Shown one piece after another: positions 157-15,153 of a stretch of 15,153 nt of DNA. The notes under the pieces are model-generated. The model was not told the DNA's origin. It saw only the letters and a program-made list of their open reading frames with translations, and searched no databases. Position numbers and translations under genes: made by a program. Each line of letters begins with the position of its first letter. Within the stretch, counting starts at the first letter, position 1. Origin of the DNA: Actinomycetes bacterium (lineage in GTDB: Bacteria; Actinomycetota; Acidimicrobiia; Acidimicrobiales; Bog-793); contig JAKAOD010000017.1 of NCBI GenBank assembly GCA_021823365.1, positions 1 through 15,153 of the forward strand, in the 5' to 3' direction.

Positions 157-1705
157 CCCTTCCGATAAGGGAAACTGATGGTGTCGAAGCCACAGCATCC
201 CCTCAAGAAGGGCACTTCCAAAGTGAACGGTACCAGCACGAGGCGCGTGAGAGTGGAAGCCGGCGGGACGGGCGTCGTGTCCCACGTCGGGCTGCATGCC
301 CTCGGCGCCTTCGCCGACCGCCTCGGCCTCGGCGACGCCGTGTCTCACGTCATCGGGCAGCGGGCGATGCTCGTCCACGATCGCGGCAAGGTGGTCGTCC
401 AGACGGCCCTCGTGCTCGCCGGTGGCGGTGAGAGCTGTGCCGACATCGAGCACCTGCGAGCCGAGCCCACGCTGTTCGGCTTCGTCCCCTCCGACTCGAC
501 CGTGCACCGGGCCTTCCACGAGATCACGAGCGAGGCGAGGACCGCGGTGGCCGCCGCAGTGGCCAGGATACGAGCCGAGGTCTGGTCGCGCTCTGCGGCG
601 ACGAAGGTGGGACCGGTGATCCTCGACATCGACGCCTCTCTCGTCGAGGTCCACTCGGAGAACAAGGAGGGGACGGCTCCCACCTACAAGGGAGGGTTCG
701 GCTTCCACCCGATCTTCTGCTTCGCGGACGCGACCGGCGAGGCGCTCTCGGGGATGCTTCGTCCAGGCAACGCCGGCTCGAACACCACAGCAGATCACAT
801 CTGCCTGCTCGACCAGGCGATCGCCCAGCTGTCAGCAGAGGTGCGCGCCGGCCACGAGGCGGGCGACGACGCCTCTCTCGTTCGCCGTGAGGTGATCTGC
901 CGGACCGACTCGGGCGGCACGACCGCAGGCTTCATGGCAGCGCTGCGTACCCGCGACGTGAGGTTCTTCACCTCGGCGATGACCAACACCGAGGTCCGCT
1001 CGGCGATCCTCGATGCCATCGGGATCGAGGAGGCCTGGGTGCCGGCGATCACGAAGAACGGCGAGGAGCGAGACGGGGCGTCGGTCTGCGAGCTCACGAG
1101 CCTCGTCGAGCTCTCGGGCTTCCCAGAGGGCACCCGGCTCATCGTGCGAAGAGAGCCGCTTCATCCCGGAGCTCAGCGCAGCTTGTTCCCTTCGCTCGAG
1201 TACCGCTACTGGGGCTTCTACACCGACGTCGAAGGCGAGGTGGCCGAGCTCGACCTCACGATGCGCCAGCACGCTCACGTCGAGAACCACATCGCCCGTC
1301 TGAAGGACTCGGGGCTGTGCCGCCTCCCGTTCTCGGACTTCGAGGCGAACGCCAGCTGGATGGCCGTCGTCATGTTGGCGGCCGACCTCGTCGCATGGCT
1401 CCACCTCCTCTGCCTGGACGGCCACTGGTCGAGCGCCCGCTCGAAGGCACTCAGGTGGGGCCCGTTCCATGCCCCCGGGCGGATCATCCGAGCCGGGCGG
1501 AGGACCCTCGTGCGCGTCCTCGAGCACTGGCCGGGCGCCGAGGCGCTGCTCGGTGCCTACCGACGCAGCACCGCTCTCACCTGAGCTCACCAGCTCGAGA
1601 AAGCGTGACGAGGGTCGAACTGCCACGCCTGCACACCGGTCTTTCGCGGCGATGACCCCGAAATGGAGCGTCACTCCACCTCGACCTCCCCTATCGCGGC
1701 GAGGG
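157..1705 (+). mobile_element. IS1380-family insertion sequence, ends tentative
   Basis: One transposase gene fills the element, and about 1.55 kb is a normal size for IS1380-family elements. The proposed ends come from an imperfect inverted pair: CGATAAGGGA at 163-172, just before the transposase start, and the reverse complement of 1687-1696, CGATAGGGGA (9 of 10 identical). CCCT-type bases lie outside each. I could not find a convincing target-site duplication, so the boundaries may be off by tens of bases. The palindromic CCCTT/AAGGG at 157-171 could also be a transposase binding site or a translational control hairpin. Confidence 0.4.
178..1584 (+). CDS. IS1380-family DDE transposase
   Basis: This 468-residue protein catalyses cut-and-paste movement of its insertion sequence. 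The family is recognised from the motif run DIDASLVEVHSENK, then APTYKGGFGFHPI and LRPGNAGSNTTADHI, all typical of IS1380 transposases. Likely catalytic acidic residues are D152 (in DIDASL), D244 (in CRTDSGGT) and E369 (in HVENHIARLKD). Length is normal for the family and no frameshift is visible, so it may be active. The ATG at 178 has an AAGGGA ribosome site at 167-172. It faces the same way as the downstream permease, from which it is separated by a 390-base gap. Confidence 0.95.
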   Translation: MVSKPQHPLKKGTSKVNGTSTRRVRVEAGGTGVVSHVGLHALGAFADRLGLGDAVSHVIGQRAMLVHDRGKVVVQTALVLAGGGESCADIEHLRAEPTLFGFVPSDSTVHRAFHEITSEARTAVAAAVARIRAEVWSRSAATKVGPVILDIDASLVEVHSENKEGTAPTYKGGFGFHPIFCFADATGEALSGMLRPGNAGSNTTADHICLLDQAIAQLSAEVRAGHEAGDDASLVRREVICRTDSGGTTAGFMAALRTRDVRFFTSAMTNTEVRSAILDAIGIEEAWVPAITKNGEERDGASVCELTSLVELSGFPEGTRLIVRREPLHPGAQRSLFPSLEYRYWGFYTDVEGEVAELDLTMRQHAHVENHIARLKDSGLCRLPFSDFEANASWMAVVMLAADLVAWLHLLCLDGHWSSARSKALRWGPFHAPGRIIRAGRRTLVRVLEHWPGAEALLGAYRRSTALT

Positions 1706-1940
1706 GTCGGCCGCCGACGTCAATGGGGACCTACGGGCGGGTGCCAATGACCGGCATGAATGATCGGGGCTAACGGGCTCAGGTCGAGCTTGGGGCAGGA
1801 CCCGACTCCGGACCCCCTCCACCTCCGAGGGTTCCGAAACCAGATCGCGGCACGCGCGCTCCCGATCTCGTCGTCTCGCATCCGTGAATCCCGTGCCGCG
1901 ACCATCGACGGCCGTGGGCCGGTCGGTTCCTCGGGGCCGA
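1585..1940. other. Intergenic gap between transposase and permease
   Basis: About 355 bases without a convincing gene. The short ORFs here show no recognisable protein and read as shadows. It contains the likely right end of the insertion sequence (about 1687-1705), which includes a CCCCT/AGGGG 5-bp stem around a 9-nt loop, and a small palindrome around GGAGCGTCACTCC (1666-1678). The stretch 1915-1940 leads into the operator-like palindrome. No tRNA-like fold was noticed. Confidence 0.5.
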
Positions 1941-1956
1941 AGGGCCGTTCGGCCCT
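1941..1956. promoter_or_regulatory. Box A: DosR-like 16-bp palindrome
   Basis: AGGGCCGTTCGGCCCT is a perfect 6-bp inverted repeat around GTTC. It differs from box C (10932-10947) at 2 of 16 positions and from box B (3168-3183) at 3. The half-sites resemble the mycobacterial DosR/DevR operator, which is built on GGGAC and GTCCC or GGCCC halves. GACAAT at 1978-1983 could be a -10 element about 21 bases downstream. That would put the transcript start near 1990 and favour a permease start at GTG 2002 or 2017. Binding by a DosR-type regulator is inferred. Confidence 0.55.
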
Positions 1957-1974
1957 ACCAGGAGCGCCAGCCGG

Positions 1975-3204
1975 GTGGACAATGCATCGAGTGACGTCGA
2001 TGTGAGTGGTGATGCGGTGCCAGGACCAACAGGACCAAGCAGCCCGGCGCCACGGCGAGCCAAGCTGTCGGTTCGCGACGAGACCAAGCCCTTCGTCCTC
2101 ATCGGCGCGATCGTGCTCGGGATCGTGGCCAACCGCCTTGTCGACGGCCGCCTGGTCCACTTCGACTGGGTGTCGAACGTGGCGGTGTTCGCGGTGATGT
2201 TCGCGGTGATGGCCTTTGTCGAGGTGAAAGACGTCGGCGTGGCCTTCAAGAAGCTGAAGCCGACCGGCCTCGCGCTCCTCACCAACTTCGTCTTCACCCC
2301 GGCCTTCGCCTGGGTGCTCGGATGGCTGGTGCTGCGCAACTACCACGACATCTGGGCCGGGGTGATCCTCTACACCCTCACCCCGTGCATCGGTTGGTAC
2401 CTGATCTTCACCGACCTCGCCGAGGGTGATGTCGCCTGGGGCGTGTCGCTGCTCCCGTGGAACCTCGTGCTCCAGATCGTGCTGTTGCCGTTCTACCTGT
2501 GGCTGCTCGTCGGAAAGGTGGTGCCAACCTCGGCGGCGACGCTGCTCGCAAGCGTCGGGCTCTACCTCGTCGCCCCCTTCGTCCTCGCCTACGGCGTGCG
2601 ATGGGTCTTGGAGCGGGCCAAGGGAAAGGATTGGACCTACGGCGCCTACAAGCACGCCATCGGCGAGGTGAAGATGTGGGCGCTCGCCGCTCTGGTGGTC
2701 ACGATCTTCGCCTTCCAGGCGAGCTTCAGCGGGATCGGCCTCGTGCGCATCGGCCTCATCATCGCGGTGATCTCGCTGTTCTTCGTCGGGCTGTTCGCCC
2801 TCAGCCTCACCGTCGGGCGGCGCTTCCACCTCGGCTACGCGGACACCGCCACGCTCGTGTTCACGACGACGGCGCGCAACTCCGAGTCGGTCATCGGCGT
2901 CGCCGCGGTCGCCTTCGCCGGCCACCCGCTCGTGCTCGTCGCCATCCTGGTAGGCCCGGTGGTCGAGCTGCCGGCGCTTCTCGGGCTGAGCCGGCTGATG
3001 GTGTGGCTGCACCATGTACTTGCCTGGCCCGGCACCTTGGAGGCCCCGGCCGCAGCCGACGGCGGGACGGCCTCGACCGAGGCAGCGGAGGAGGGGGCAG
3101 ACGCGCTCGGTGCAAGTCGCCGTGAGGAGGTGCCGCTCGACGGCCACCGCCCCGGCGGGCGAACAGTAGGGACTTTAGGCCCTTTTAGGCGGCGAGCGGG
3201 ATGA
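1975..3204 (+). CDS. Acr3-like arsenite/BASS-superfamily permease
   Basis: Polytopic inner-membrane protein of 409 residues with about ten hydrophobic segments between residues 35 and 355, and a charged Ala/Glu-rich C-terminal tail. Segments such as LTPCIGWYLIFTDLAEGD and FTTTARNSESVIGVA, then VGPVVELPALLGL, match the Acr3 branch of the bile acid/arsenite/riboflavin superfamily. The single cysteine C138 in TPC and the acidic residue E331 in VGPVVE fall where Acr3 proteins have the functionally important TM4 Cys and TM9 Glu. This supports an anion or metalloid exporter, probably of arsenite or antimonite, but the substrate is inferred. GTG 1975 has AGGAG at 1960-1964. If box A drives transcription, a later start (GTG 2002 or 2017) is plausible, and the first 15 to 30 residues are low-complexity anyway. 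An ArsA-family ATPase lies 11.6 kb away on the other strand. Confidence 0.8.
   Translation: MDNASSDVDVSGDAVPGPTGPSSPAPRRAKLSVRDETKPFVLIGAIVLGIVANRLVDGRLVHFDWVSNVAVFAVMFAVMAFVEVKDVGVAFKKLKPTGLALLTNFVFTPAFAWVLGWLVLRNYHDIWAGVILYTLTPCIGWYLIFTDLAEGDVAWGVSLLPWNLVLQIVLLPFYLWLLVGKVVPTSAATLLASVGLYLVAPFVLAYGVRWVLERAKGKDWTYGAYKHAIGEVKMWALAALVVTIFAFQASFSGIGLVRIGLIIAVISLFFVGLFALSLTVGRRFHLGYADTATLVFTTTARNSESVIGVAAVAFAGHPLVLVAILVGPVVELPALLGLSRLMVWLHHVLAWPGTLEAPAAADGGTASTEAAEEGADALGASRREEVPLDGHRPGGRTVGTLGPFRRRAG
3168..3183. promoter_or_regulatory. Box B: DosR-like 16-bp site upstream of first ATPase
   Basis: AGGGACTTTAGGCCCT is the member most like the mycobacterial operator, with a GGGACTTTAG core. It shares 13 of 16 positions with box A. 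It overlaps the last codons of the permease gene and ends 105 bases before the ATPase start at 3289. Boxes C and D end 86 and 89 bases before their plus-strand genes. The box-to-start distance therefore supports a promoter-linked site. Confidence 0.6.
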
Positions 3205-3288
3205 GAAGCGCCCGGGACGGGTTGAACCGAAGGACACGACGGGACGGGAGCGCGACGCCGCCCGTTGAGAGCATTGAAGGAGAACCAC

Positions 3289-5734
3289 ATGGCAAAGGTC
3301 GTTGAGCACCAGAAGGCCACCGAGATCGTCACCTCTGCCCCGCCGCCGACGGCAGTGGCCGGCCGGGCACGGCAGCATCAGCGGCCGGCCTGACCAGCAC
3401 CGAGGCGCTCGGCCGCCTCGGGCGCTTCGGGCCGAACGCCGTCGTCGAGACACCGCCGCGCACCTGGTTCCTCCTGCTGCACCGCTTCTGGGGGGTGATC
3501 CCCTGGATGCTCGAGGCCGCCATCATCATCGACCTGGTGCTCGGCCGCTACGCCGAGGCCGGGGTGATCGCCGCCCTCCTCGTGTTCTCGGCCGGTCTCG
3601 GCTTCTACCAGGAGCGCCGAGGAAAGAAGGCTGTCTCCCTGCTGCGCTCGCAGCTGCAGGTGAACACCCGGGTGCGCCGCGACGGCGCCTGGCAGATACT
3701 TCCTGCGGCCCAGCTGGTCCCAGACGACGTCGTCTACCTGCGGGCCGGCGATGTCGTCCCCGCAGACGTGGCGCTCGCGGACGGGGTGGTCTCGCTCGAC
3801 CAGTCCCAGCTCACCGGCGAGTCGCTCCCGGTCGAGGCCCGCGCCGGCGACAGCGCCTATGCCGGCTCCCAGGTCTCGAGGGGCGAGGCCACCGGAGTGG
3901 TGAGCGCACGGCCGGGAGGACCCAATTCGGAAAGACCGCCCAGCTCGTCCAGCTGGCCCGGGCCCCGAAACGCCTGCAGCTGCTCACCGTGTCGATCGCC
4001 AAGTACCTCCTCGCCCTCGACGTGGTGCTCATCGCCATCGTCATCGGCGCCGCGGTCTGGAAGGGGACGACGCTGTCGAACACCCTGCCGTTCGCCCTGA
4101 CGCTCCTCGTCGCCTCGGTGCCGGTCACCCTGCCCGCCAGGTTCACCATGTCGGCCGCGATGGGGGCCGCCAACCTCTCGAAGAAAGGGGTGCTCGCTAC
4201 GCACCTTTCGGCCATCGAGGACGCGGCGACCATGGACGTCATCTGCGTCGACAAGACCGGCACCATCACCGAGAACCGCCTCGGCGTCGAACAGGTCGCC
4301 TCTCTCGGAGACATGAGCCCCGACGAGGTGCTCGCCCTCGCCGTGGAGGCCTCCGACGAGGCCACCCAGGACCCCTTGGACCTGGCGATCCTCGCCGAGG
4401 CCGCACGCCGGAGCCTCTCCGCCAGCGAGGGGCCCGAGCGGCTCGCTTTCGTGCCCTTTGACCCGACCACCAAGCGCTCCGAAGCAGATGTCCGCCACGA
4501 CGGCACCGTCACCCACGTTCTGAAGGGTGCCCCGCGCACGCTCGCCGCGCTCGCCAAGGTCCCCTTCGAAGAGGTCGAGGCCGACGTCGAGCGCCTCGCC
4601 GCCGACAGCGCCCGGGTGCTCGCCGTGGCGAGCGGCCCCCAAGACGCCCTGCACCTCGACGGGCTCGTCGCCCTCTCGGACCCGCCCCGGGCCGACTCCG
4701 CCGGCCTCGTGAAGGCCCTCGGCGCCGAGGGGGTGCGGGTCGTGATGGTGACCGGGGACTCCGAGGCCACCGCCCGAGCCGTCGCAGAGAAGATCGGGAT
4801 CGGCGGCGAGGTGGCCCCCCCAGGAACCATCACCGAGGATCTCGACGCCATCACTGCCGAGCGCTACTCGGTGTTCTCCGGGGTGCTCCCCGAGCACAAG
4901 TTCGCCCTCATGAAGGCCCTCCAGGACGCCGGCCACGTCGTCGGGATGACCGGCGACGGGGTGAACGACGCCCCTGCTCTCGGCCAGGCCGACGTCGGCG
5001 TGGCGGTGGCCTCCGCCACCGACGTGGCGAAGGCCTCGGCGAGCCTCGTGCTCACAAAGGAGGGCCTCGGCGAGATCCTCATGGCCATAAAGGGCAGCCG
5101 CAACATCTACCAGCGCATGCAGACCTGGACGACGGCCATGATCACCCGCAAGGCGGCCATCCCGCCGTTCCTCGCCCTGGCGCTGCTCGTGTGGGGGGCC
5201 TTCGCCCTCACCCCGCTCCTCGTGGTGCTCTTCATGCTGCTCGGCGACATCGCCACGTTCGCCCTCTCCAAGGACAACCTCGTGCCCTCCACCCGGCCGG
5301 ACCGCTGGGTGGTGCGCTCTCTCGTCACCACCGGGCTTGGCTTTGCCACCTTGCTGTTCCTGGCGAGCGGGGCGATCTTCTGGGTTGCCCACTACGGCCT
5401 CGGGCTCAGCATCGCCCAGACCCAGACCGCCGCCTACCTGTGGCTCGTCTTCGCCGGCGGCCAGACTGCCCTCTACCTCGCCAGAGCCCGCGGAGTATTC
5501 TGGGCCAAGCCCTTCGCCGGCAAGTGGCTCCTCTGGGCAAGCGTGTTCGACATCGCCGTCGCCGTGGTGATGGCCAACCAGGGCTGGCTCATGCACCCGC
5601 TCTCGGTCGCCTGGATGGCCAGCCTGTTCGGCGTCGCCGTCGCCTACCTCGTTGTGGGCAACGCCTTCCGGCTCGCTGCCTCGGCCTTCATCCGGCGCCT
5701 GGCGCCGGGCCGGGCGGCACGGGCGGAGAGCTGA
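3289..5734 (+). pseudogene. P3A-type proton-efflux ATPase with two apparent frameshifts
   Basis: The gene encodes a plasma-membrane H+-ATPase (P-type, class IIIA). ATG 3289 has AAGGAG at 3276-3281 and opens MAKVVEHQKATEIVTS, but that frame stops at 3391. The ATPase continues in a second frame (GLTSTEALGRLGRFGPNAV, 3387 on) to about 3907, then in a third frame to the TGA at 5732. Each switch fits one missing base. Restoring a base after 3907 gives SATAGRTQFGKTA, which parallels GATGARTYFGRTA in the neighbouring paralogue. The repaired protein would have about 815 residues with LTGES, phosphorylated D322 in DKTGT, KGAP, GDGVND, and M6 D654 (LGDIATF) at the position of the proton-binding Asp of plant pumps. 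All motifs are intact, so sequencing or assembly error or very recent decay are both possible. Box B precedes it. Confidence 0.85.
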
Positions 5735-5779
5735 CCGTCGTCCTTACCCAGTGCAACAGCGAAGAGAAGGAGGAATCTG

Positions 5780-5980
5780 ATGGCAGCACCCGCATGGGAT
5801 CTACCCAGCGGGGGCGGGCGGCTCGTTGTGACCAACGGCCCTAGCGCGAGCCGCGGCTGTAAGACCAGATTGGATCGGACGGCTGCAGCCGGTGCCGACC
5901 GGCGTGACGGCTCGGGCTCTGGAGTATCCCCGTGGCAAAGCGCACCGACGAACAGCAAGCCATCGCTTCGCAGCTCGTGA
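5780..5980 (+). CDS. Doubtful small ORF with strong ribosome site
   Basis: A 66-codon frame starts at ATG 5780 behind AAGGAGG, the best Shine-Dalgarno match in this part of the window. It begins MAAPAWDLPSGGGRLVVTNG. It has no recognisable family, becomes Ser/Arg-rich, and overlaps the start of the next ATPase in another frame. It also contains box D. It may be a relic of a gene start, a leader peptide, or chance. I would not assign a function. Confidence 0.2.
   Translation: MAAPAWDLPSGGGRLVVTNGPSASRGCKTRLDRTAAAGADRRDGSGSGVSPWQSAPTNSKPSLRSS
5827..5842. promoter_or_regulatory. Box D: degenerate DosR-like site upstream of second ATPase
   Basis: TGTGACCAACGGCCCT keeps a GACC left half and a perfect CGGCCCT right half but matches box B at only 10 of 16 positions. 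It ends 89 bases before the GTG at 5932, nearly the same distance as box C has to its plus-strand gene. A weak -10 candidate, TGTAAG, lies at 5858-5863. This is the weakest of the four sites and relies on position for support. Confidence 0.4.
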
Positions 5981-8406
5981 CAGGGCCGTCGCTCCCAGAG
6001 ACGCCGCTGGTTGCCGAGGCCGCCGCTCCAGCTCCCGGGCGGGGTGAGGCCGGGGAATCCGGTGGGGCTGGTCACCCTGGTGGGCTGCGCAGCGTCGAGG
6101 CAGCCGAGCGCCTGGCGGCATTTGGTCCCAACGCTGTCGCCGACTCACGACCGAAGCGGCTGCTCGCCCTTGCCCGCGGCTTTTGGGGGCTGGTCCCCTG
6201 GATGCTCGAGGCGGCCGTCGGCATCGAGCTGTACCTCGGGAACTGGGTGGAAGCGGTCGTGATCGCGGCGCTGCTCGTGTTCAACGCCGGGCTCTCGTTC
6301 TTCCAGCAGAACAAGGCGCAGCGGGCGCTCGGCCTGCTGCGCCAGCGCCTCGACGTGACCGCGCGGGTGCGTCGAGACGGAGAATGGCAGGAGGTTCCTG
6401 CGGCTGGCCTCGTGCCCGGCGACCTCGTCCACCTGCGGATGGGAGACATCGTCCCGGCCGACGTCGAGCTCGCCGATGGCAGGATCGAGGTCGACCAGTC
6501 CCAGCTAACCGGCGAGTCCGCCCGAATCGACCAGGAACCAGGTGCGACCGCCTACAGCGGTTCCCTCGTCACATGGGGCGAGGCGAGCGGTCTGGTCGGC
6601 GCCACGGGCGCCCGCACCTACTTCGGCAGAACGGCTGAGCTCGTCAGGGTGGCGGAAGCGCCCCGTCGCCTCGAGATCCTGATCGTGCACATCGCCAAGT
6701 ACCTGGCAGCCGTGGTCCTTGCCCTCGCCGCCGCGGTGTTCATCTACTGGGGCGTCGAGGGCAGGTCCTTCCTCGACATGCTCCCCTTCGGGCTCATGCT
6801 GCTCGTAGCCTCCGTTCCGGTCGCCCTGCCGGCCATGTTCACGATGTCGGCCACCTTGGGCGCCCAGGGGCTGGCCCAGAACGGGATCCTGGTCACGCGC
6901 TTGTCGGCAATCGAGGACGCCGCCACCATGGACGTCGTCTGCCTCGACAAGACCGGCACCGTCACCGAGAACCGCTTGAGCGTCGAGACCCTGGCGCCGC
7001 AGGGCTCGAGAAGCGGAGACGAGCTGTTGTACCTCGCCGCCCTCGCGTCCGACGAGGCGACCCAGGACCCGATCGACCTCGCCATCCTCGCCGCCGCCCG
7101 AGATCACGGCCTTCCCGACGGCTCGGCGAGAGAGGCTTTCGTGCCCTTCGACCCGGTGACCAAGCGCTCGGAGGCGTCTGTCCGCGAGGACGGCAAGGTC
7201 CTGCGGGTGGTGAAGGGGGCCCCTACGGTCGTGGCAGAGCTCGTCGGCGGACGGCCGGACCTCGTCTCCGACGTCGAGCGCCTGTCGGCGGGGGGCTCCC
7301 GAGTTCTCGCCGTGGCTGCCGGTGCCGGCGCCACACTCGAGCTGGCCGGCTTGGTCGCTCTCGCCGACCCGCCGCGCCCGGAGTCCGCCGAGCTGATCCA
7401 CCGCCTGCACGCGAGCGGCATGAGGGTGCTTCTCGTGACGGGCGACGGCGAGGACACCGCACGGGCCGTTGCCGAGAAGGTCGGCATCACCGGGGCGGTG
7501 GCTCCTTCAGGGACGCTGCACGAGGGGGTCGAGCCCGAGACCATCTCCCGTTTCGAGGTCTTCGCCGGAGTGCTCCCGCAGGACAAGTACACCCTCGTGA
7601 AGGCGCTCCAAGAGGCGGGGCACGTGGTCGGCATGACCGGTGACGGCGTGAACGACGCCCCCGCCCTGCGCCAGGCCGACGTCGGCATCGCCGTCGCCGC
7701 GTCCACGGACGTCGCCAAGGCGGCGGCCAGCCTGGTGCTCACCCGACCGGGGATCGGCGAGATCATGGCCGCCGTCCAAGGAAGCCGGCGGATCTACCAG
7801 CGCATGAAGACCTTCGTCGTCACCATGCTCGCCCGCAAGATCGGCATCCCGATCTTCCTCGCGGGCGGGGTCGTTCTCGCCGGAGTGTTCGTCACGACCC
7901 CGGCCCTCATCGTCCTGCTCATGTTCGGCACCGACATCGCCACGATGACCCTCTCCACCGACCAGGTCGTCGCGTCCGAGGGCCCCGACAGCTGGTCCGT
8001 CGCCTCCCTCGTCACCACCGGGGCGAGCATCGGAGCGCTCCTTGTCGGCCTCAGCACGGCCGTCTACTGGAGCCGGTACCTATTCGGGCTCAACCTGCGC
8101 CAGACGCAGACTTTGGCCTTCGTCTGGCTGGTGTTCGGGGCGGCCCAGGCGATCTTGTACCTCATGCGCAACCCGCGCTGGTTCTGGCACCGGCCCCACC
8201 CGAGTCGGATGCTGGCCGTCTCGAGCACCGTCGACATCGTCGGAGTCGGCCTCATCGCCTGGTTCGGCTGGCTCACGGCTCCGATCCCGATCGGCCTGAT
8301 CGCCGCCACCCTCGGCCTGGCGGTCGCCTTCCTGTTCGCGACCGACCTGGTGAAGATGGCACTGGCGCACCTTGGAGCACGACCCGCTAGGACACCTGCG
8401 TCGTGA
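5932..8406 (+). CDS. P3A-type proton-efflux ATPase, intact
   Basis: This 824-residue plasma-membrane H+-ATPase (class IIIA) uses ATP to export protons. In order it shows a variable N-terminus, a cation-ATPase N domain (SVEAAERLAAFGPNAV), M1-M2 (PWMLEAAVGIELYLG), the actuator motif LTGES (TGES 193-196), M3-M4 with ASVPVALPAMF, phosphorylated D339 in DKTGTVTENRL, KGAP, GDGVND (570-575), and six C-terminal helices. D668 in FGTDIATM matches the M6 aspartate that binds the proton in plant pumps. GTG 5932 has GGAG at 5921-5924. It is a full-length paralogue of the disrupted ATPase just upstream and follows box D. It lacks the CPC-type membrane motif of heavy-metal P1B pumps, so proton is the best substrate guess. 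Confidence 0.92.
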   Translation: MAKRTDEQQAIASQLVTGPSLPETPLVAEAAAPAPGRGEAGESGGAGHPGGLRSVEAAERLAAFGPNAVADSRPKRLLALARGFWGLVPWMLEAAVGIELYLGNWVEAVVIAALLVFNAGLSFFQQNKAQRALGLLRQRLDVTARVRRDGEWQEVPAAGLVPGDLVHLRMGDIVPADVELADGRIEVDQSQLTGESARIDQEPGATAYSGSLVTWGEASGLVGATGARTYFGRTAELVRVAEAPRRLEILIVHIAKYLAAVVLALAAAVFIYWGVEGRSFLDMLPFGLMLLVASVPVALPAMFTMSATLGAQGLAQNGILVTRLSAIEDAATMDVVCLDKTGTVTENRLSVETLAPQGSRSGDELLYLAALASDEATQDPIDLAILAAARDHGLPDGSAREAFVPFDPVTKRSEASVREDGKVLRVVKGAPTVVAELVGGRPDLVSDVERLSAGGSRVLAVAAGAGATLELAGLVALADPPRPESAELIHRLHASGMRVLLVTGDGEDTARAVAEKVGITGAVAPSGTLHEGVEPETISRFEVFAGVLPQDKYTLVKALQEAGHVVGMTGDGVNDAPALRQADVGIAVAASTDVAKAAASLVLTRPGIGEIMAAVQGSRRIYQRMKTFVVTMLARKIGIPIFLAGGVVLAGVFVTTPALIVLLMFGTDIATMTLSTDQVVASEGPDSWSVASLVTTGASIGALLVGLSTAVYWSRYLFGLNLRQTQTLAFVWLVFGAAQAILYLMRNPRWFWHRPHPSRMLAVSSTVDIVGVGLIAWFGWLTAPIPIGLIAATLGLAVAFLFATDLVKMALAHLGARPARTPAS

Positions 8407-8720
8407 TCGCCCATGAGCTGGCGGTCTGGCTCTGGGTGCTGGCCTGGCTAGTGGTGCCGGTGGGTCCGGTCACCGCTCGCCTGCAGCCGGCCGGTGGCAT
8501 CATGGCACGACTGCCGGCGCCCCAGACGCCTCCCTGCCGGTGCGCTGCCGGTGACGAGAGCCCACCTTCCCGTCCTCTTCGACCTGAAGACCTCCTGACT
8601 CGGGCTCTGCCGCGGCTCCGGCTACGGCACTCGGGCCGGAGCGCGCTGCGCGCCGTCGAGCATCGACACTGGCAGATCCGATGGCTCGTGACGATCCGGC
8701 AGCGGTGCCTCCTGGCCTGA
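8403..8720 (+). CDS. Doubtful small ORF coupled to the ATPase stop
   Basis: GTG 8403 overlaps the ATPase TGA as GTGA, a typical coupling arrangement. The first 25 residues (MIAHELAVWLWVLAWLVVPVGP) could be one membrane helix. The rest is Arg/Pro/Leu-rich with no family signature and looks like a shadow frame. It overlaps the start of the next membrane protein. It may be a short membrane peptide followed by decay, or not a gene. Confidence 0.2.
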   Translation: MIAHELAVWLWVLAWLVVPVGPVTARLQPAGGIMARLPAPQTPPCRCAAGDESPPSRPLRPEDLLTRALPRLRLRHSGRSALRAVEHRHWQIRWLVTIRQRCLLA

Positions 8721-9292
8721 CGCAACAGATGCGGTCTTCTGCGGCGTCGATGAAGATGATCAACCGGAGGGTGGCGGCGCTGGCCGCAGCGGCCGTCGTG
8801 CTCATGGTCCCGTGGATGGTGTTCCTCGGCGTCACCCTCCCCCCCCGATACGAGGCACGTCAGTGGCCACTGCTTTGGATCGGCTTCGACTTCTTCGAGG
8901 TGGTGGCACTCGCCCATGTGGCGTGGTCGGCATGGTTCCGCAGGCAGGTCACCCTCATCAGCAGCATCGTGGTCGCCACGTTGCTGTTCGCCGACGCATG
9001 GTTCGACGTGGTCACGTCGATCGGGAACCGCGACGAGTGGGTCACGGTTGCCACGGCCCTCGCCGGCGAGCTCCCGCTGGCGCTCTTCTTCCTCTGGATC
9101 GCTCGCCGCATCCTCGTCCGCATGGTCGCCGCACTTCACTGCGCCGAGGGCAGGCAAGGACCGCCCCCGCGCCTGCGCGACGCCAGCATCCTCGCCCACC
9201 CCGTCCGGCCGGGCGCGGCGTCCGCATGGGACCATCGGGACCCGCTCGGGGAGGGGGCGGACTGGAGGGACGCCGACGGGGCGAGCCTCTGA
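8681..9292 (+). CDS. Four-helix membrane protein of unknown function
   Basis: Up to 203 residues with four predicted membrane helices: VAALAAAAVVLMVPWMVFLG, a segment around PLLWIGFDFFEVVALAHVAW, a segment around ISSIVVATLLFADAWFDVV, and ATALAGELPLALFFLWIAR. The WIGFDFFEV and LLFADAWFDV motifs place acidic and aromatic residues inside helices. From memory such proteins are common and uncharacterised in actinobacteria. The start is uncertain: ATG 8681 has no clear ribosome site, and ATG 8729 or 8750 are alternatives just before the first helix. The C-terminal 50 residues are polar and probably cytoplasmic. A hairpin follows its stop. No function can be given. Confidence 0.7.
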   Translation: MARDDPAAVPPGLTQQMRSSAASMKMINRRVAALAAAAVVLMVPWMVFLGVTLPPRYEARQWPLLWIGFDFFEVVALAHVAWSAWFRRQVTLISSIVVATLLFADAWFDVVTSIGNRDEWVTVATALAGELPLALFFLWIARRILVRMVAALHCAEGRQGPPPRLRDASILAHPVRPGAASAWDHRDPLGEGADWRDADGASL

Positions 9293-9302
9293 GCGGCAGT
9301 GT

Positions 9303-9333
9303 CGGCGATCCACTCGGCTCGTGTGGATCGCCG
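9303..9333. terminator. Strong hairpin between convergent genes
   Basis: CGGCGATCCAC (9303-9313) pairs perfectly with GTGGATCGCCG (9323-9333) around a 9-nt loop, giving an 11-bp stem. It lies 10 bases after the membrane-protein stop and about 120 bases past the end of the convergent minus-strand flavoprotein gene. There is no U-run on either side, which is common for high-GC actinobacterial terminators. A bidirectional terminator is the likely role. Confidence 0.65.
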
Positions 9334-9454
9334 GAGGCCCGGGCGTCACGGAACGAGACGAACTCCAAGCACACCTCGCTCAGGCCGGGGCCACGCAGCC
9401 TCCACACCCTGCCAGGCGAGCGCCCATGGCGCGTCGTCGAGTCGATGTCGTCTT

Positions 9455-10864
9455 TCAACCGCCCGGTCGACGGCGAGGCTCGTAAGGGGGGTCGTGGATG
9501 GGTCTCGGCATCAGCGCGTGCTGGAGCGCCTGGGAGAGCCCCGGGAACACCGACAGGGTGCCGGCCGCCTGGGCGAGGGTGAGGCCGCCGGTCATGGCGA
9601 AGGCGATCCCTTGGATGAGCTCGGGCGAGCCCGCTCCGACAGCGTGGGCGCCGAGGATCCGGCCGCTGCCGGCCTCGGCGAGGACCTTCACGAAGCCCTC
9701 CGGCTCGCCGACGACGTTGCCGACCGGACAGACGTCCCGGTAGTCCTGACGGTGCACCTCGACGGCGAGTCCCTCGTCGCGCGCCTGGTCCTCGGTCAGC
9801 CCCACGCCCGCCACCGGCGGAGTGAGCCCGACCAGGTACGGGACCACCCGGTCGTCGAAGGCGGCCCGCTCGCCCCTCAGGGCGTTGCCGGCGACCATCG
9901 TGCCCTGCTTGGTGGCGACCGGCGACAGCTGGTAGGACCCGGCTCGCACGTCCCCGATGGCATAGATGTGCTCCACGTTGGTACGCAACGTGGGGTCGGT
10001 TGGGATCCCGTGGCGGTCATAGGCCACCCCGGCGGCCTCGAGAACGAGATCGTCGACTGCCGGCACCATCCCGGCCGCCAGGAGCACCCGGTCGGCCTCG
10101 AGCTGCAAGGGGCCGTCGGGTGCCGTCGCCTCCACGGCGATGCCCCCGCCCTGCCGGGTGAGGCGCTCGACCCCGGTGGAGAGGTGCAGGGTGATCCCGA
10201 GCCGCTCCGCCATGGCCGCCACCTCGGACCGCACGTCCTGGTCGACCCGTCCGAGCACATGGTCCAGCAGCTCGATGACCGAGACCTCGACGCCGACGCG
10301 GGCCATCATGAAGGCGAACTCCATGCCGATCACTCCGCCGCCGATCACGACCAAGCGGCGGGGGAGCTCGCGCGCCTCGAGCATCTCGACGTGCCCATCG
10401 GCCAGCTCGATGCCGTCGATAGGCAGTTTGGGCAGCCTCGCACCGGTCGCCACCACGATCGAGGCGCCGTGGAGGACTCGGTCACCGACGGCGACTGAGT
10501 GCGGGTCGACGAAGCGACCGGACCCGGCGACGAGGATCGCCCCGCCTTGGACGAGCTCCTCGGGCTTGGGATCGGCGCAACCGGCCACGATGGCCTGGGC
10601 CCGGTCTACGGCGGCAGCCCAGTCGACCTGCGGTTCGCCGACGGTGATCCCGAACTCGGAGGACCGGCGGATCAGGCTGAGGATCTCGGTGACCCTGACC
10701 AGGGTCTGCTTGGGGATTCACCCGTAGTGGAGTCAGGTGCCGCCGATCTTGTCGGGCTCCACCACCGCCACGCTGGCGCCGAGCGCCAACGCCCGCCGCG
10801 CCACCGCGCCGCCGCCCGGGCCAGCGCCGAGGACCACCAGGTCGTAGCGATCGGCTGCGTCCAT
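9455..10864 (-). CDS. MerA/Lpd-like flavoprotein with UGA at both redox Cys positions; candidate selenoprotein
   Basis: A 469-codon FAD/NAD(P)-dependent disulfide-reductase-family protein. ATG 10864 has GGGAGGAG just upstream. Domains are an FAD fold (GAGPGG, 13-18), the active-site motif, ATGAR (139-143), an NAD(P) fold (GGGVIG, 175-180), the FAD-contacting IGD (303-305), and the C-terminal dimerisation domain. Where the family has GGTCLHYGCIP, this gene reads GGT-UGA-LHYG-UGA-IP, so UGA sits at residues 44 and 49, exactly the CxxxxC pair. Everything else is in frame and well conserved. The gene's own stop is also UGA. A SECIS-like hairpin follows the second UGA. The usual catalytic His and Glu near the C-terminus appear as F440 and Q445 (TLSVFPGLSQAL), closer to mercuric reductase than to Lpd or glutathione reductase. 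There is no N-terminal metal-binding domain or C-terminal CC. Selenocysteine is most likely, cysteine by an opal tRNA is the alternative, and a substrate is not assignable. It is divergent from the SQR-like gene, with box C between. Confidence 0.85.
10691..10706 (-). promoter_or_regulatory. SECIS-like hairpin inside the flavoprotein gene
   Basis: Read on the minus strand, GACCCU pairs with AGGGUC around a GGUC loop, giving a perfect 6-bp stem. Seventeen bases separate the second UGA (10718-10720) from the first loop base, and 32 separate the first UGA from it. E. coli fdhF has 18 bases and the same GGUC apical loop. Bacterial SECIS elements place the UGA roughly 16-37 bases from a loop that begins with G, so both UGA codons are in range. 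The bulged U of fdhF is not evident, but bacterial SECIS structures vary. Confidence 0.65.
10718..10720 (-). other. In-frame UGA at residue 49 (second active-site position)
   Basis: Codons around it read TAC GGG TGA ATC CCC AAG (Y G ? I P K). This is the second Cys of CxxxxC, normally the one forming the charge-transfer complex with FAD. It is the UGA best placed for the hairpin at 10691-10706. Confidence 0.9.
10733..10735 (-). other. In-frame UGA at residue 44 (first active-site position)
   Basis: Codons read GGC ACC TGA CTC CAC (G G/T ? L H context, GGT?LHYG). This is the first Cys of CxxxxC, normally the interchange thiol. It has no separate strong hairpin of its own. A weak GGG/CCC stem would place the second UGA in its loop. 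Recoding would have to use the hairpin 32 bases downstream. Confidence 0.9.
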
Positions 10865-10931
10865 CGGTTCTCCTCCCGGCGTACACCTAGGTCGGCAACA
10901 GCGAGCCTACGACAGGGTCCGTTGCGGGACA

Positions 10932-11033: not shown

Positions 11034-12311
11034 ATGGCAGAGCAGATCGTGATCCTGGGTGGCGGGACCGGGGGGACGCTGCTCGCCAACCGCCTGCGCC
11101 GTGCCTACGGACGGCGTGAGGCGGCCATCGCCGTGGTCGACCGGGACGACCGCCACATCTACCAGCCCGGCCAGGTGCCCGTTGCCTTCGGCATCAGCCG
11201 GCCGAAGGACATCGTTCGGTCCCGCCGGCGCCAGCTGCGAGCCGGAGTCGACTTCCACGAGACCGAGATCGGCCACGTCGACCTCGGCGAGCAGCAGGTG
11301 CATCTGGATGGTGGCCCCGTCCTCGACTACGACGTGCTGGTGGTCGCCACCGGGGCGCGCCTCGCCCCCGAGGCCACCCCCGGCCTCACCGGGCCGGGAT
11401 GGATGGACACGGTGCTCACCTTCTACGACCTAGAGGGCGCTGCCGCCCTCTCAGCGGCCCTCGAGCGCTTCGACGAGGGGCGCCTCGTGGTCGGCGTGGT
11501 CGACATGCCGATCAAGTGCCCCGTCGCACCCCTCGAGTTCTGTCTCTTGGCCGACTGGTACTTCACCCAACGCCACCTGCGCGACCGGATCGAGATCACC
11601 TTCCTGAGCCCCCTGCCCAACCTCTTCTCGGCGCCAATCGCCGACGCGAGCGTCGAGCAGCTCTTCGCCGAGAAGCGGGTCGGCCAGGAGACCGGCTTCC
11701 ACATCTCAGAGGTCGACGGGGCGAGCGGACGGATCCTCGGCGAAGACGAGCGGGAGATCGGCTTCGACCTGGCGGTGGTCGTCCCGTCCTTCCGGGGCGC
11801 CGCCTATGTCGGACGCTCTGCGGGTCTCGGGAACGACCGGGACTTCATCGAGGTGGACACCAAGACCCTGCAGTCGCCTGTGTATCCGAACGTGTTCGCC
11901 ATCGGCGACGCCGCCGACCTCCCCACCTCCAAGACCGGGTCGGTGGCGCACTTCGAGGGCGAGGTGGTCGCCCACAACGTCCGCCGGTTCCTCGCCGGGC
12001 AGCCCGCCGACGCCCACTACGACGGCCACGGCACCGGCTTCATCGAGACCGGCTTCCACAAGGCGATGCTGCTCGACTCGAACTACACCACCCAGCCCCT
12101 GCCCGGACACTTCCCGACCGCCGTCGGGCTGCCGCTCCTGAAGGACTCGCGCCTCAGCCACCTGGCCAAGGTCGAATTCCAGTGGTTCTACTGGCACTTC
12201 CTCCTCCCCGGGCGTGACATCCCCGGGCTCGGGTCGGCCATGCCGACGCGCGGAAAGGCCCGGGTGGCGGACATCGACGCCGCACCCGGCGCTCCGGCCC
12301 CGCCTGCGTGA
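11034..12311 (+). CDS. SQR-like FAD-dependent oxidoreductase (sulfide:quinone reductase family)
   Basis: A 425-residue flavoprotein likely peripheral to the inner membrane. It has GGGTGG near residue 9 for FAD, DRDDRHIYQPGQVPVAFG, DMPIKCPVAPLEF with C162, C170 just after, and IGDAADLPTSKTGSVAHFE, all typical of SQR-related proteins that pass electrons from sulfide or polysulfide to quinone. C162 matches the conserved SQR cysteine of KCPxAP. The late cysteine expected in DGHxxCFIETG is Gly335 here (HGTGFIETGF), so the classical Cys pair is incomplete and the reaction may differ. ATG 11034 has AGGGGG at 11021-11026. A hydrophobic C-terminal region (FQWFYWHFLLPG) could bind membrane. It is divergent from the candidate selenoflavoprotein, with box C shared. 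Confidence 0.85.
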   Translation: MAEQIVILGGGTGGTLLANRLRRAYGRREAAIAVVDRDDRHIYQPGQVPVAFGISRPKDIVRSRRRQLRAGVDFHETEIGHVDLGEQQVHLDGGPVLDYDVLVVATGARLAPEATPGLTGPGWMDTVLTFYDLEGAAALSAALERFDEGRLVVGVVDMPIKCPVAPLEFCLLADWYFTQRHLRDRIEITFLSPLPNLFSAPIADASVEQLFAEKRVGQETGFHISEVDGASGRILGEDEREIGFDLAVVVPSFRGAAYVGRSAGLGNDRDFIEVDTKTLQSPVYPNVFAIGDAADLPTSKTGSVAHFEGEVVAHNVRRFLAGQPADAHYDGHGTGFIETGFHKAMLLDSNYTTQPLPGHFPTAVGLPLLKDSRLSHLAKVEFQWFYWHFLLPGRDIPGLGSAMPTRGKARVADIDAAPGAPAPPA

Positions 12312-12422
12312 GCAGCGGGCTTTGTCGCAGTAAGGTTGGACGACCTGCAAGCCGCTGGTCCATGGCACTGTTCCGGTCCCGGCGCGTCCGATATCGGTGC
12401 GAGAAGGCATTTCACCGCAGAC

Positions 12423-12713
12423 ATGGCGTTCGAGGAGCAAATCCCCGACACCGTAAAGCCGCGGGCGGCTGTCCTCCTCGACGTGCCGGCCGAGAAATGC
12501 CGGCAGCGCCTGCTCGTCCGGGCGGCTATGGCTATAGAGGGTCGCGACGACGACGCGGCCGGGACGATCGACCATCGCCTTGATCTGTTCGAAGAGGACC
12601 TGACGCCGGTGATCGAGTGCTACCAGCAGTGGGGACTCCTCATTCGAGTCGACGACGTGGCGGATCGCCGCGTCGTGACCGAGCGGAGCCTCGATCGCCG
12701 GGGCACCCCGTGA
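12423..12713 (+). pseudogene. 5'-truncated adenylate-kinase-like remnant
   Basis: The frame reads RAAVLLDVPAEKCRQRLL, then EGRDDDAAGTIDHRLDLF, then TPVIECYQQWGLLIRVDD. This matches the C-terminal half of adenylate kinases: AMP-side LDVP, the RxDD segment, and the final xVD. The N-terminal P-loop (GPPGAGKGT) and AMP-binding parts are absent from all upstream frames, and the open frame extends only to 12336 with unrelated sequence. About 96 of the usual 190-215 residues remain. It ends in TGA overlapping the GTG of the next gene. A domain-only protein is possible but loss of the P-loop argues against kinase activity. Confidence 0.65.
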
Positions 12714-14839: not shown

Positions 14840-15153
14840 TCACGCCATCGCCGCGGCCGGCGCGGCGCTGAGCCGGGACAGCGCCTCGATGCCGGTGGGT
14901 GCCTCGGCCAGCATGGGCACCAGCGCCAGGCGCCGCGCGTAGCGGGCGGCGATCTCCGCCAGGCGGTGGGTCTCAGCATCGGCCCGGGCGGCGAGCAGCG
15001 CGTCGGTGGTGGAGGTGGCGGCGAGGCTCTGGTTAGCGACCCAAGCGAACGGCTCGATCCCCGCCCGGCGCAGGTCCTCCTGCAGGGCGGCCGCCTCGTG
15101 GATCGGGGTGGCCTCGGGCACGGTGACGACGATCACGGAGGTGAACCCGGGAT
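14840..15153 (-). CDS. arsA: C-terminal part of ArsA-family anion-transporting ATPase (partial)
   Basis: The frame is open to the window edge and ends at TGA (14842-14840), giving about 104 residues. Text such as VIVVTVPEATPIHEAAALQ, then DLRRAGIEPFAWVANQSLAA and ALVPMLAEAPTGIEALSRL matches the C-terminal region of bacterial ArsA/Get3-type ATPases, which energise arsenite efflux or handle membrane-protein cargo. The P-loop and switch regions lie outside the window, so catalytic integrity cannot be judged. Together with the Acr3-like permease it suggests metalloid resistance, though the two are far apart. Confidence 0.85.
   Translation of the reverse strand, partial: PGFTSVIVVTVPEATPIHEAAALQEDLRRAGIEPFAWVANQSLAATSTTDALLAARADAETHRLAEIAARYARRLALVPMLAEAPTGIEALSRLSAAPAAAMA

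Follow-up and report, generated by a model that had tools for sequence, protein, structure and literature searches.

A candidate double-selenocysteine branch of the group I FAD disulfide reductases, with one predicted SECIS hairpin for two UGA codons

On the minus strand of a 15,153-nucleotide stretch of DNA from an Actinomycetes bacterium (the whole stretch analysed, hereafter the window) we find a gene whose product, judged by its sequence, belongs to the group I FAD disulfide reductases, and in which UGA occupies both codons of the redox-active cysteine pair. Both codons, at residues 44 and 49, are very probably decoded as selenocysteine by way of a single predicted SECIS hairpin that follows them, a reading that we consider likely because relatives keep the UGAs together with a matching hairpin. 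We further consider it probable that the gene represents a branch of selenoproteins in the Lpd/MerA superfamily that had not been listed before, in which UxxxxC, CxxxxU and UxxxxU forms share a single hairpin of constant position; in its UxxxxU (UU) form a diselenide would face the flavin, the catalytic histidine and the flavin-side lysine would have been discarded, and Cys96 and Cys379 would have been gained as a likely second relay. The positions of the features are collected in the table.

Table. Features of the window that bear on the candidate UxxxxU reductase and its surroundings
Feature	Position	Strand	Remarks
Candidate UxxxxU FAD disulfide reductase gene	9455..10864	-	469 codons and a TGA stop; UGA at codons 44 and 49
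Shine-Dalgarno-like GGGAGGAG	10870..10877	-	precedes the ATG at 10864; GGAGGA upstream of this ATG
UGA codon 44	10733..10735	-	first (interchange) position of the CxxxxC motif
UGA codon 49	10718..10720	-	second (flavin-side) position of the CxxxxC motif
SECIS-like hairpin GACCCU-GGUC-AGGGUC	10691..10706	-	apical loop 10697-10700
Cys96	10577..10579	-	in 32/32 UU-clade rows covering the site; in no row of the other compared groups
Cys379	9728..9730	-	in 34/34 UU-clade rows; in no row of the other compared groups
Phe440 at the Lpd catalytic His position (HPTxSE -> FPGLSQ)	9545..9547	-	from alignment
SQR-like flavoprotein (type III sulfide:quinone reductase)	11034..12311	+	divergent neighbour; no in-frame UGA
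ACR3/SBF-like transporter	1975..3204	+	Pfam SBF over cut-off; TIGR00832 (arsenite efflux) below cut-off
ArsA-type ATPase, C-terminal end	14840..15151	-	runs off the window

An earlier note on this DNA had described the frame as intact from its ATG except for the two UGAs, and our translation agrees: the only in-frame stops are those at residues 44 and 49, both TGA, within GGT*LHYG*IPKQTLVRV. The Shine-Dalgarno-like sequence GGGAGGAG ahead of the ATG backs a start upstream of both. Two stops placed at random among 469 codons would fall on exactly these sites about once in 110,000 times (469 × 468/2), and the pair is kept in two related genes, one from an Actinomycetes metagenome-assembled genome (L001, 89% protein identity to the window) and one from an Acidobacteria metagenome-assembled genome (L002, 56%), both with the motif GGT*LxYG*IPKQTLVRV; the note's judgement that a chance double hit was very unlikely is thus borne out. 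Codons 1-43, which precede both UGAs, are under purifying, protein-level selection, with dN 0.033 and dS 0.374 (dN/dS about 0.09) between the window and L001, and 0.44 and 0.92 between the window and the more distant L002.

These observations bear on two explanations that need no recoding. Decay or assembly error does occur on the contig, where a P-type ATPase gene is divided between two frames and only part of an adenylate kinase remains, but gene decay, or an error of sequencing or assembly at both codons, seems exceedingly improbable given the recurrence of the same UGA pair in two other assemblies, the low dN/dS ahead of the UGAs in the comparison with L001 and the lack of any other stop in 469 codons; we rejected it as contradicted by L001 and L002. 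It is also highly improbable that the product is the downstream part only (for example from the GTG at 10588, 377 amino acids), with a dead frame upstream. Gene callers do pick such starts: in a search of a set of 5.8 billion proteins, the 31 nearest of 120 listed (49-90% identity) all start past codon 49. When aligned to the window, however, these starts are scattered from residue 61 to 112, and a product of that length would have neither the FAD-binding motif GxGxxG nor the redox motif, nor the start backed by the Shine-Dalgarno-like sequence; the selection on codons 1-43 led us to reject a downstream start as the real gene. The remaining 89 listed proteins share at most 39% identity with the window, and two truncated entries of the protein set, P0007 and P0021, are near-copies of the L001 and L002 genes.

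All nine window ORFs examined, the reductase gene itself and eight others, end in TGA, so any recoding would be local, with UGA an ordinary stop here, and a wholesale reassignment of UGA was rejected on this ground. Rfam and ARAGORN searches of the window gave two sub-threshold Rfam matches and no tRNA.

The read-through protein matches two Pfam domains above their cut-offs, Pyr_redox_2 with 190 bits and Pyr_redox_dim with 80 bits, which jointly span nearly its whole length, and it has the Lpd/GR/MerA fold by which group I FAD pyridine nucleotide-disulfide reductases are recognized. Membership in the Lpd or the MerA family was rejected, as the NCBIfam cut-offs are not reached: TIGR01350 (dihydrolipoyl dehydrogenase) scores 333.2 bits (cut-off 408.8) and TIGR02053 (MerA) 307.3 bits (cut-off 454.45). 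Among the best 25 NCBIfam matches (June 2026) of the UU, UC and CU proteins there are general reductase models only.

Genome contigs yielded at least 592 matching stretches, of which 80 were taken and, with one viral match, made up 81 loci, so that the counts are lower bounds. Sites 44 and 49 are covered by 80 of these loci; among the matches listed, 77 have cysteine at both (C/C), two have UGA at both and one has UGA followed by cysteine, which places the window's UGAs, as the earlier note had proposed, on the two cysteines of the GGTCxxxxC motif. With six C/U genes added, the two columns hold cysteine or UGA and no other residue. Random stops, which the note had taken as a sign against recoding, are absent from the UGA genes: L001 and L002 have two in-frame TGAs each, and each of seven single-UGA genes has one, without further stops. 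In each of seven C/C loci the local alignment contains a single stop, possibly the terminal one.

The seven single-UGA genes are of two kinds. In Jeotgalicoccus marinus (L003, also L120) UGA stands at site 44 only (UxxxxC), and with its read-through protein as query seven of 398 genomes of the Jeotgalicoccus class match at E <= 1e-100, each with one internal TGA. The other six of these seven (L121-L126) have UGA at site 49 only (CxxxxU), in the motif GGTCLNWG*MPKKALVR. Each cysteine has thus been replaced by UGA singly in relatives, and both have been replaced in the window's branch.

In a rapidly computed maximum-likelihood tree, built from 112 rows chosen by hand that include 102 of 238 database proteins and omit the short protein P0205, a single set of 80 rows (SH-aLRT 99) takes in every UU, UC, CU and truncated row and five C/C rows; the other 32 C/C rows are separate. 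The UU branch has support of 100 and comprises 34 rows, in three of which the two UGAs were read in DNA, the other 31 being truncated predictions. The tree carries long-branch warnings, including one for the C/C row P0180 that adjoins the UU branch. Four Cys/Cys proteins, P0130 and P0131 (Chloroflexota metagenome-assembled genome), P0134 and P0148, are nested in the UGA branch, the first three full-length and P0148 shorter at its start; a reversion from selenocysteine to cysteine is a possible reading of their placement. Draws of 396 genomes per phylum from two phyla, and 298 genomes of the order of L001's genome, each returned at E <= 1e-90 the centre genome's own gene only, a plasmid tblastn search gave at least 5000 records, the 5000 counted being all under 60% identity, and viral contigs gave one match at 23% identity.

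Downstream of the two UGAs, the transcript can form a SECIS-like hairpin with a stem of 6 bp and the loop GGUC, whose apical loop lies 17 nt past UGA-49 and 32 nt past UGA-44; the 45 nt from UGA-49 fold at -10.1 kcal/mol. A 2026 review (PMC13188914) gives limits for bacterial SECIS elements of 16-37 nt spacing, a stem of 4-16 bp, a loop of 3-9 nt with an early G and a minimum free energy (MFE) of at most -7.5, and the window hairpin falls within these for both spacings, stem, loop and energy. As 17 and 32 nt both lie inside the 16-37 nt range stated there, one hairpin could serve both UGAs. The earlier note did not mention this element.

The hairpin tracks the UGA codons across the family. At alignment-based positions, a stem of at least 6 bp and a G in the first two loop positions are found in 10/10 UGA genes, and at the same place the stem is at most 5 bp in 77/77 Cys/Cys genes among the matches listed, these sequences being related and not independent. 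The window and L002, which differ at about 43% of residues, share 12 consecutive identical codons, 48-59, covering UGA-49 and the entire hairpin; the next-longest run is four, and a 12-codon run was reached in 2 of 20,000 permutations of synonymous identity. In L126, two of the six pairs are changed on both sides with pairing kept, a covariation that comes from one distinct sequence and that, among four sequences, 30 of 500 shuffles equal. The stability of the window hairpin shows no excess over shuffled sequence (z -0.03), and z-scores elsewhere are -0.53 (L002), -1.39 (L126) and -3.57 (L125). The case for the hairpin accordingly comes from its fixed position, its sequence conservation and its absence from C/C genes, and not from energy.

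One could also suppose that selenocysteine enters at one site only, most likely 49 with its 17-nt spacing, UGA-44 being passed in some other way or acting as a regulatory stop. Two UGAs separated by 15 nt would otherwise depend on the same hairpin, in six relatives the UGA is found at site 49 alone, and the sole DNA case with UGA at site 44 alone, that of Jeotgalicoccus, sits in a genome with neither SelA nor tRNA-Sec over cut-off. Yet the Jeotgalicoccus gene keeps the hairpin in the same place, 32 nt from its UGA-44 and inside the 16-37 nt range given in PMC13188914, and both L001 and L002 keep both UGAs; we thus give single-site insertion little credence and favour selenocysteine at both positions.

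Whether the machinery for this is present was asked of the relatives' genomes, a check on selA, selB, selC and selD that the earlier note had suggested, and the answer is divided. The L002 genome has all four: a tRNA-Sec (selC) with anticodon tca (67.4 bits, over cut-off), and SelA (529 bits), SelB (300 bits) and SelD (365 bits) over their curated cut-offs, SelD itself having one TGA. In the L001 genome, a fragmented draft of 5.4 Mb, no match to any of the four exceeds its cut-off. SelA does so in 12 of 32 genomes of the family to which L001 belongs and in all six CxxxxU genomes, and hence in six of the seven single-UGA genomes. The seventh is that of Jeotgalicoccus, in which SelA and tRNA-Sec were sought and neither was over cut-off. 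ORFs flanking the Jeotgalicoccus gene (5249-9377 and 11851-13494 of L003) resemble, by eye, IS21 istA/istB and mercuric reductase, with a MerR regulator nearby; such flanks, in a genome where neither SelA nor tRNA-Sec passes its cut-off, suggest that this gene is perhaps a stranded, horizontally acquired copy.

The genomes without selenocysteine genes over cut-off, L001 (none of the four) and Jeotgalicoccus (neither SelA nor tRNA-Sec), would fit a different decoding, in which a suppressor tRNA-Cys with a UCA anticodon (selC*-like) reads both UGAs as cysteine and the enzyme is an ordinary CxxxxC reductase; opal suppressor tRNA-Cys species are known in some anaerobic bacteria (PMC7609411). This too we regard as very unlikely, as the L002 genome has a tRNA-Sec with a tca anticodon and the other selenocysteine genes, the conserved hairpin has the place and loop of a SECIS element, and the loss of the His and Lys discussed below accompanies the two UGAs. 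Furthermore, the six CxxxxU genes write the adjacent cysteine as TGY, and UGA is therefore not a free synonym for cysteine in them. The double-selenocysteine recoding put forward in the earlier note is thus supported by the UGA/Cys columns, by the sel genes of L002 and by the conserved hairpin.

The active site of the UU branch differs from that of its relatives beyond the two UGAs. A His-Glu pair in the C-terminal domain of dihydrolipoyl dehydrogenase is catalytic. In the window protein this pair is absent, Phe standing at the His position and Gln445 at the Glu position, and Phe replaces the His in 33/33 UU-branch rows with a residue there. The His is kept in 9/9 UC, 18/18 CU and 10/11 other truncated rows, as well as in the four C/C relatives inside the branch; the 33 other C/C rows have 23 His, 8 Tyr and 2 Phe. 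Similarly, the Lys four residues past the second redox position has become Gln (Gln53 in the window) in the three UU rows that cover the site, and is Lys in every non-UU row with a letter there. That the UU branch has lost both residues suggests that the selenium pair has assumed the tasks of the lost base. The two cysteines specific to the UU clade (Table) may help its enzyme as a second thiol pair. Glu198, which closes the second Rossmann strand, is present in 28/29 UU rows with a letter there and is presumably a mark of NADH preference. MerA requires a C-terminal Cys pair; the window protein ends in ...PPYEPRRRPGG, without a pair of that type.

The surroundings of the gene give some indication of what the enzyme may act on. 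In L002, reading along one strand, the reductase gene follows those for an ArsR regulator, ArsD with an AhpD/CMD-type domain, ArsA and OsmC. L001 keeps the SQR-like neighbour (1667-3013) and the P-type ATPase neighbour of the window. Lpd, AhpD and OsmC are linked in mycobacteria and others. These ars-type and OsmC surroundings favour a role for the window's branch as a thiol/metalloid-stress reductase, with low confidence as to its substrate. No 2-oxoacid dehydrogenase or mer genes were found among the window ORFs scanned. For the CxxxxU genes, six stretches were fetched and neighbours scanned in four: the gene lies one gene from OsmC in L140, one gene from a 2-oxoacid dehydrogenase E2 in L139, and between DUF3939 and homoserine O-succinyltransferase genes in L136 and L138, so that two of the four scanned neighbourhoods (L136 and L138) show no metal or thiol-stress link.

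Several further features of these neighbourhoods can be recorded. The best model for the SQR-like neighbour is NF049943, a selenoprotein subtype of type III sulfide:quinone reductase, at 479 bits in the window and 487 bits in L001 (cut-off 525), although the gene contains no in-frame UGA. In L002, ArsD is fused in frame to the AhpD/CMD-type domain (2954-3703). A complete IS1380-family transposase gene (178-1584, plus strand) borders the arsenic-related region of the window. The P-type proton ATPase occupies 3302-5734 and, for its N-terminal part in another frame, 3495-4100 (plus strand), with a frameshift, real or an assembly error, probably near 3930-3950. The adenylate kinase remnant (12336-12713, plus strand) covers Pfam ADK positions 85-150 only and is below cut-off; in L001 the gene is intact (1037-1624) in the same place beside the SQR gene.

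We propose the following mechanism. SelB carrying Sec-tRNA(Sec) would read UGA-44 and UGA-49 from the one hairpin, 32 and 17 nt away, to yield a NADH-dependent reductase in which a predicted diselenide beside the flavin replaces the usual disulfide. Such a pair might have the lower potential and faster exchange that the earlier note expected of it. By analogy with the family, NADH would reduce FAD, two electrons would move from FAD to Sec49 and from there to Sec44, and Sec44 would then attack the substrate. Because a selenol would already be ionized at neutral pH, such an enzyme could dispense with the catalytic His and the flavin-side Lys, whose places are taken in the window protein by Phe440 and Gln53. 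More speculatively, the partner could be an intermediate formed under arsenic and peroxide stress, either a disulfide or a metalloid-thiol species, with the ArsD-AhpD-type fusion or the OsmC protein encoded beside the L002 gene as candidates.

Few flavoenzymes have been studied as closely as the group I disulfide reductases, and among the matches listed 77 of 80 loci have CxxxxC as the pair that faces the flavin. A natural family with C/C, U/C, C/U and U/U on one fold would provide a built-in experiment on the contribution of each selenium, as well as a compact example from nature in which two UGAs, separated by 15 nt, would share a single SECIS hairpin. It also points to an annotation gap, as in most database entries found for the branch the FAD-binding and redox sites are missing, gene callers having placed the start beyond the UGA; an example is the 413-aa P0143 of Caldalkalibacillus salinus, named 'dihydrolipoyl dehydrogenase family protein'.

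In Table 1 of the 2026 review PMC13188914 (119 families) no enzyme of the Lpd/MerA superfamily appears as a UxxxxU, UxxxxC or CxxxxU form, and the titles and abstract openings among the matches listed name none, although the full texts of PMC12013277 (deep-Sep) or Haft and Tolstoy 2025 may mention one. Two entries in that table come close. The CoA-disulfide reductase-like FAD-dependent oxidoreductase (UGxP; TIGR03385) is, like the predicted window protein, a selenocysteine flavoprotein of the wider pyridine nucleotide-disulfide oxidoreductase group, but has a single selenocysteine in another motif, and its model gives the window protein 82 bits (cut-off 579). The rhodanese/DsbD-like selenoprotein TsoB (UxxxxU, NF045694; Table 1 of PMC13188914) has two selenocysteines at the same spacing, but belongs, judging by its name, to a different family. 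NF045694 is not among the best 25 of the 67 NCBIfam matches of the window protein. Compared with lipoamide dehydrogenase (TIGR01350; Mycobacterium tuberculosis Lpd, 2a8x/3ii4), the window has UGA for both redox cysteines and the changes of His to Phe440, Glu to Gln445 and Lys to Gln53; compared with MerA (TIGR02053; Tn501 1zk7, Lysinibacillus 5x1y), it again has UGA for both redox cysteines, and no C-terminal Cys pair. Animal thioredoxin reductase is a group I flavoenzyme with selenocysteine in its C-terminal GCUG tail and CxxxxC as its flavin-side pair, whereas in the window the UGAs stand in the flavin-side pair itself.
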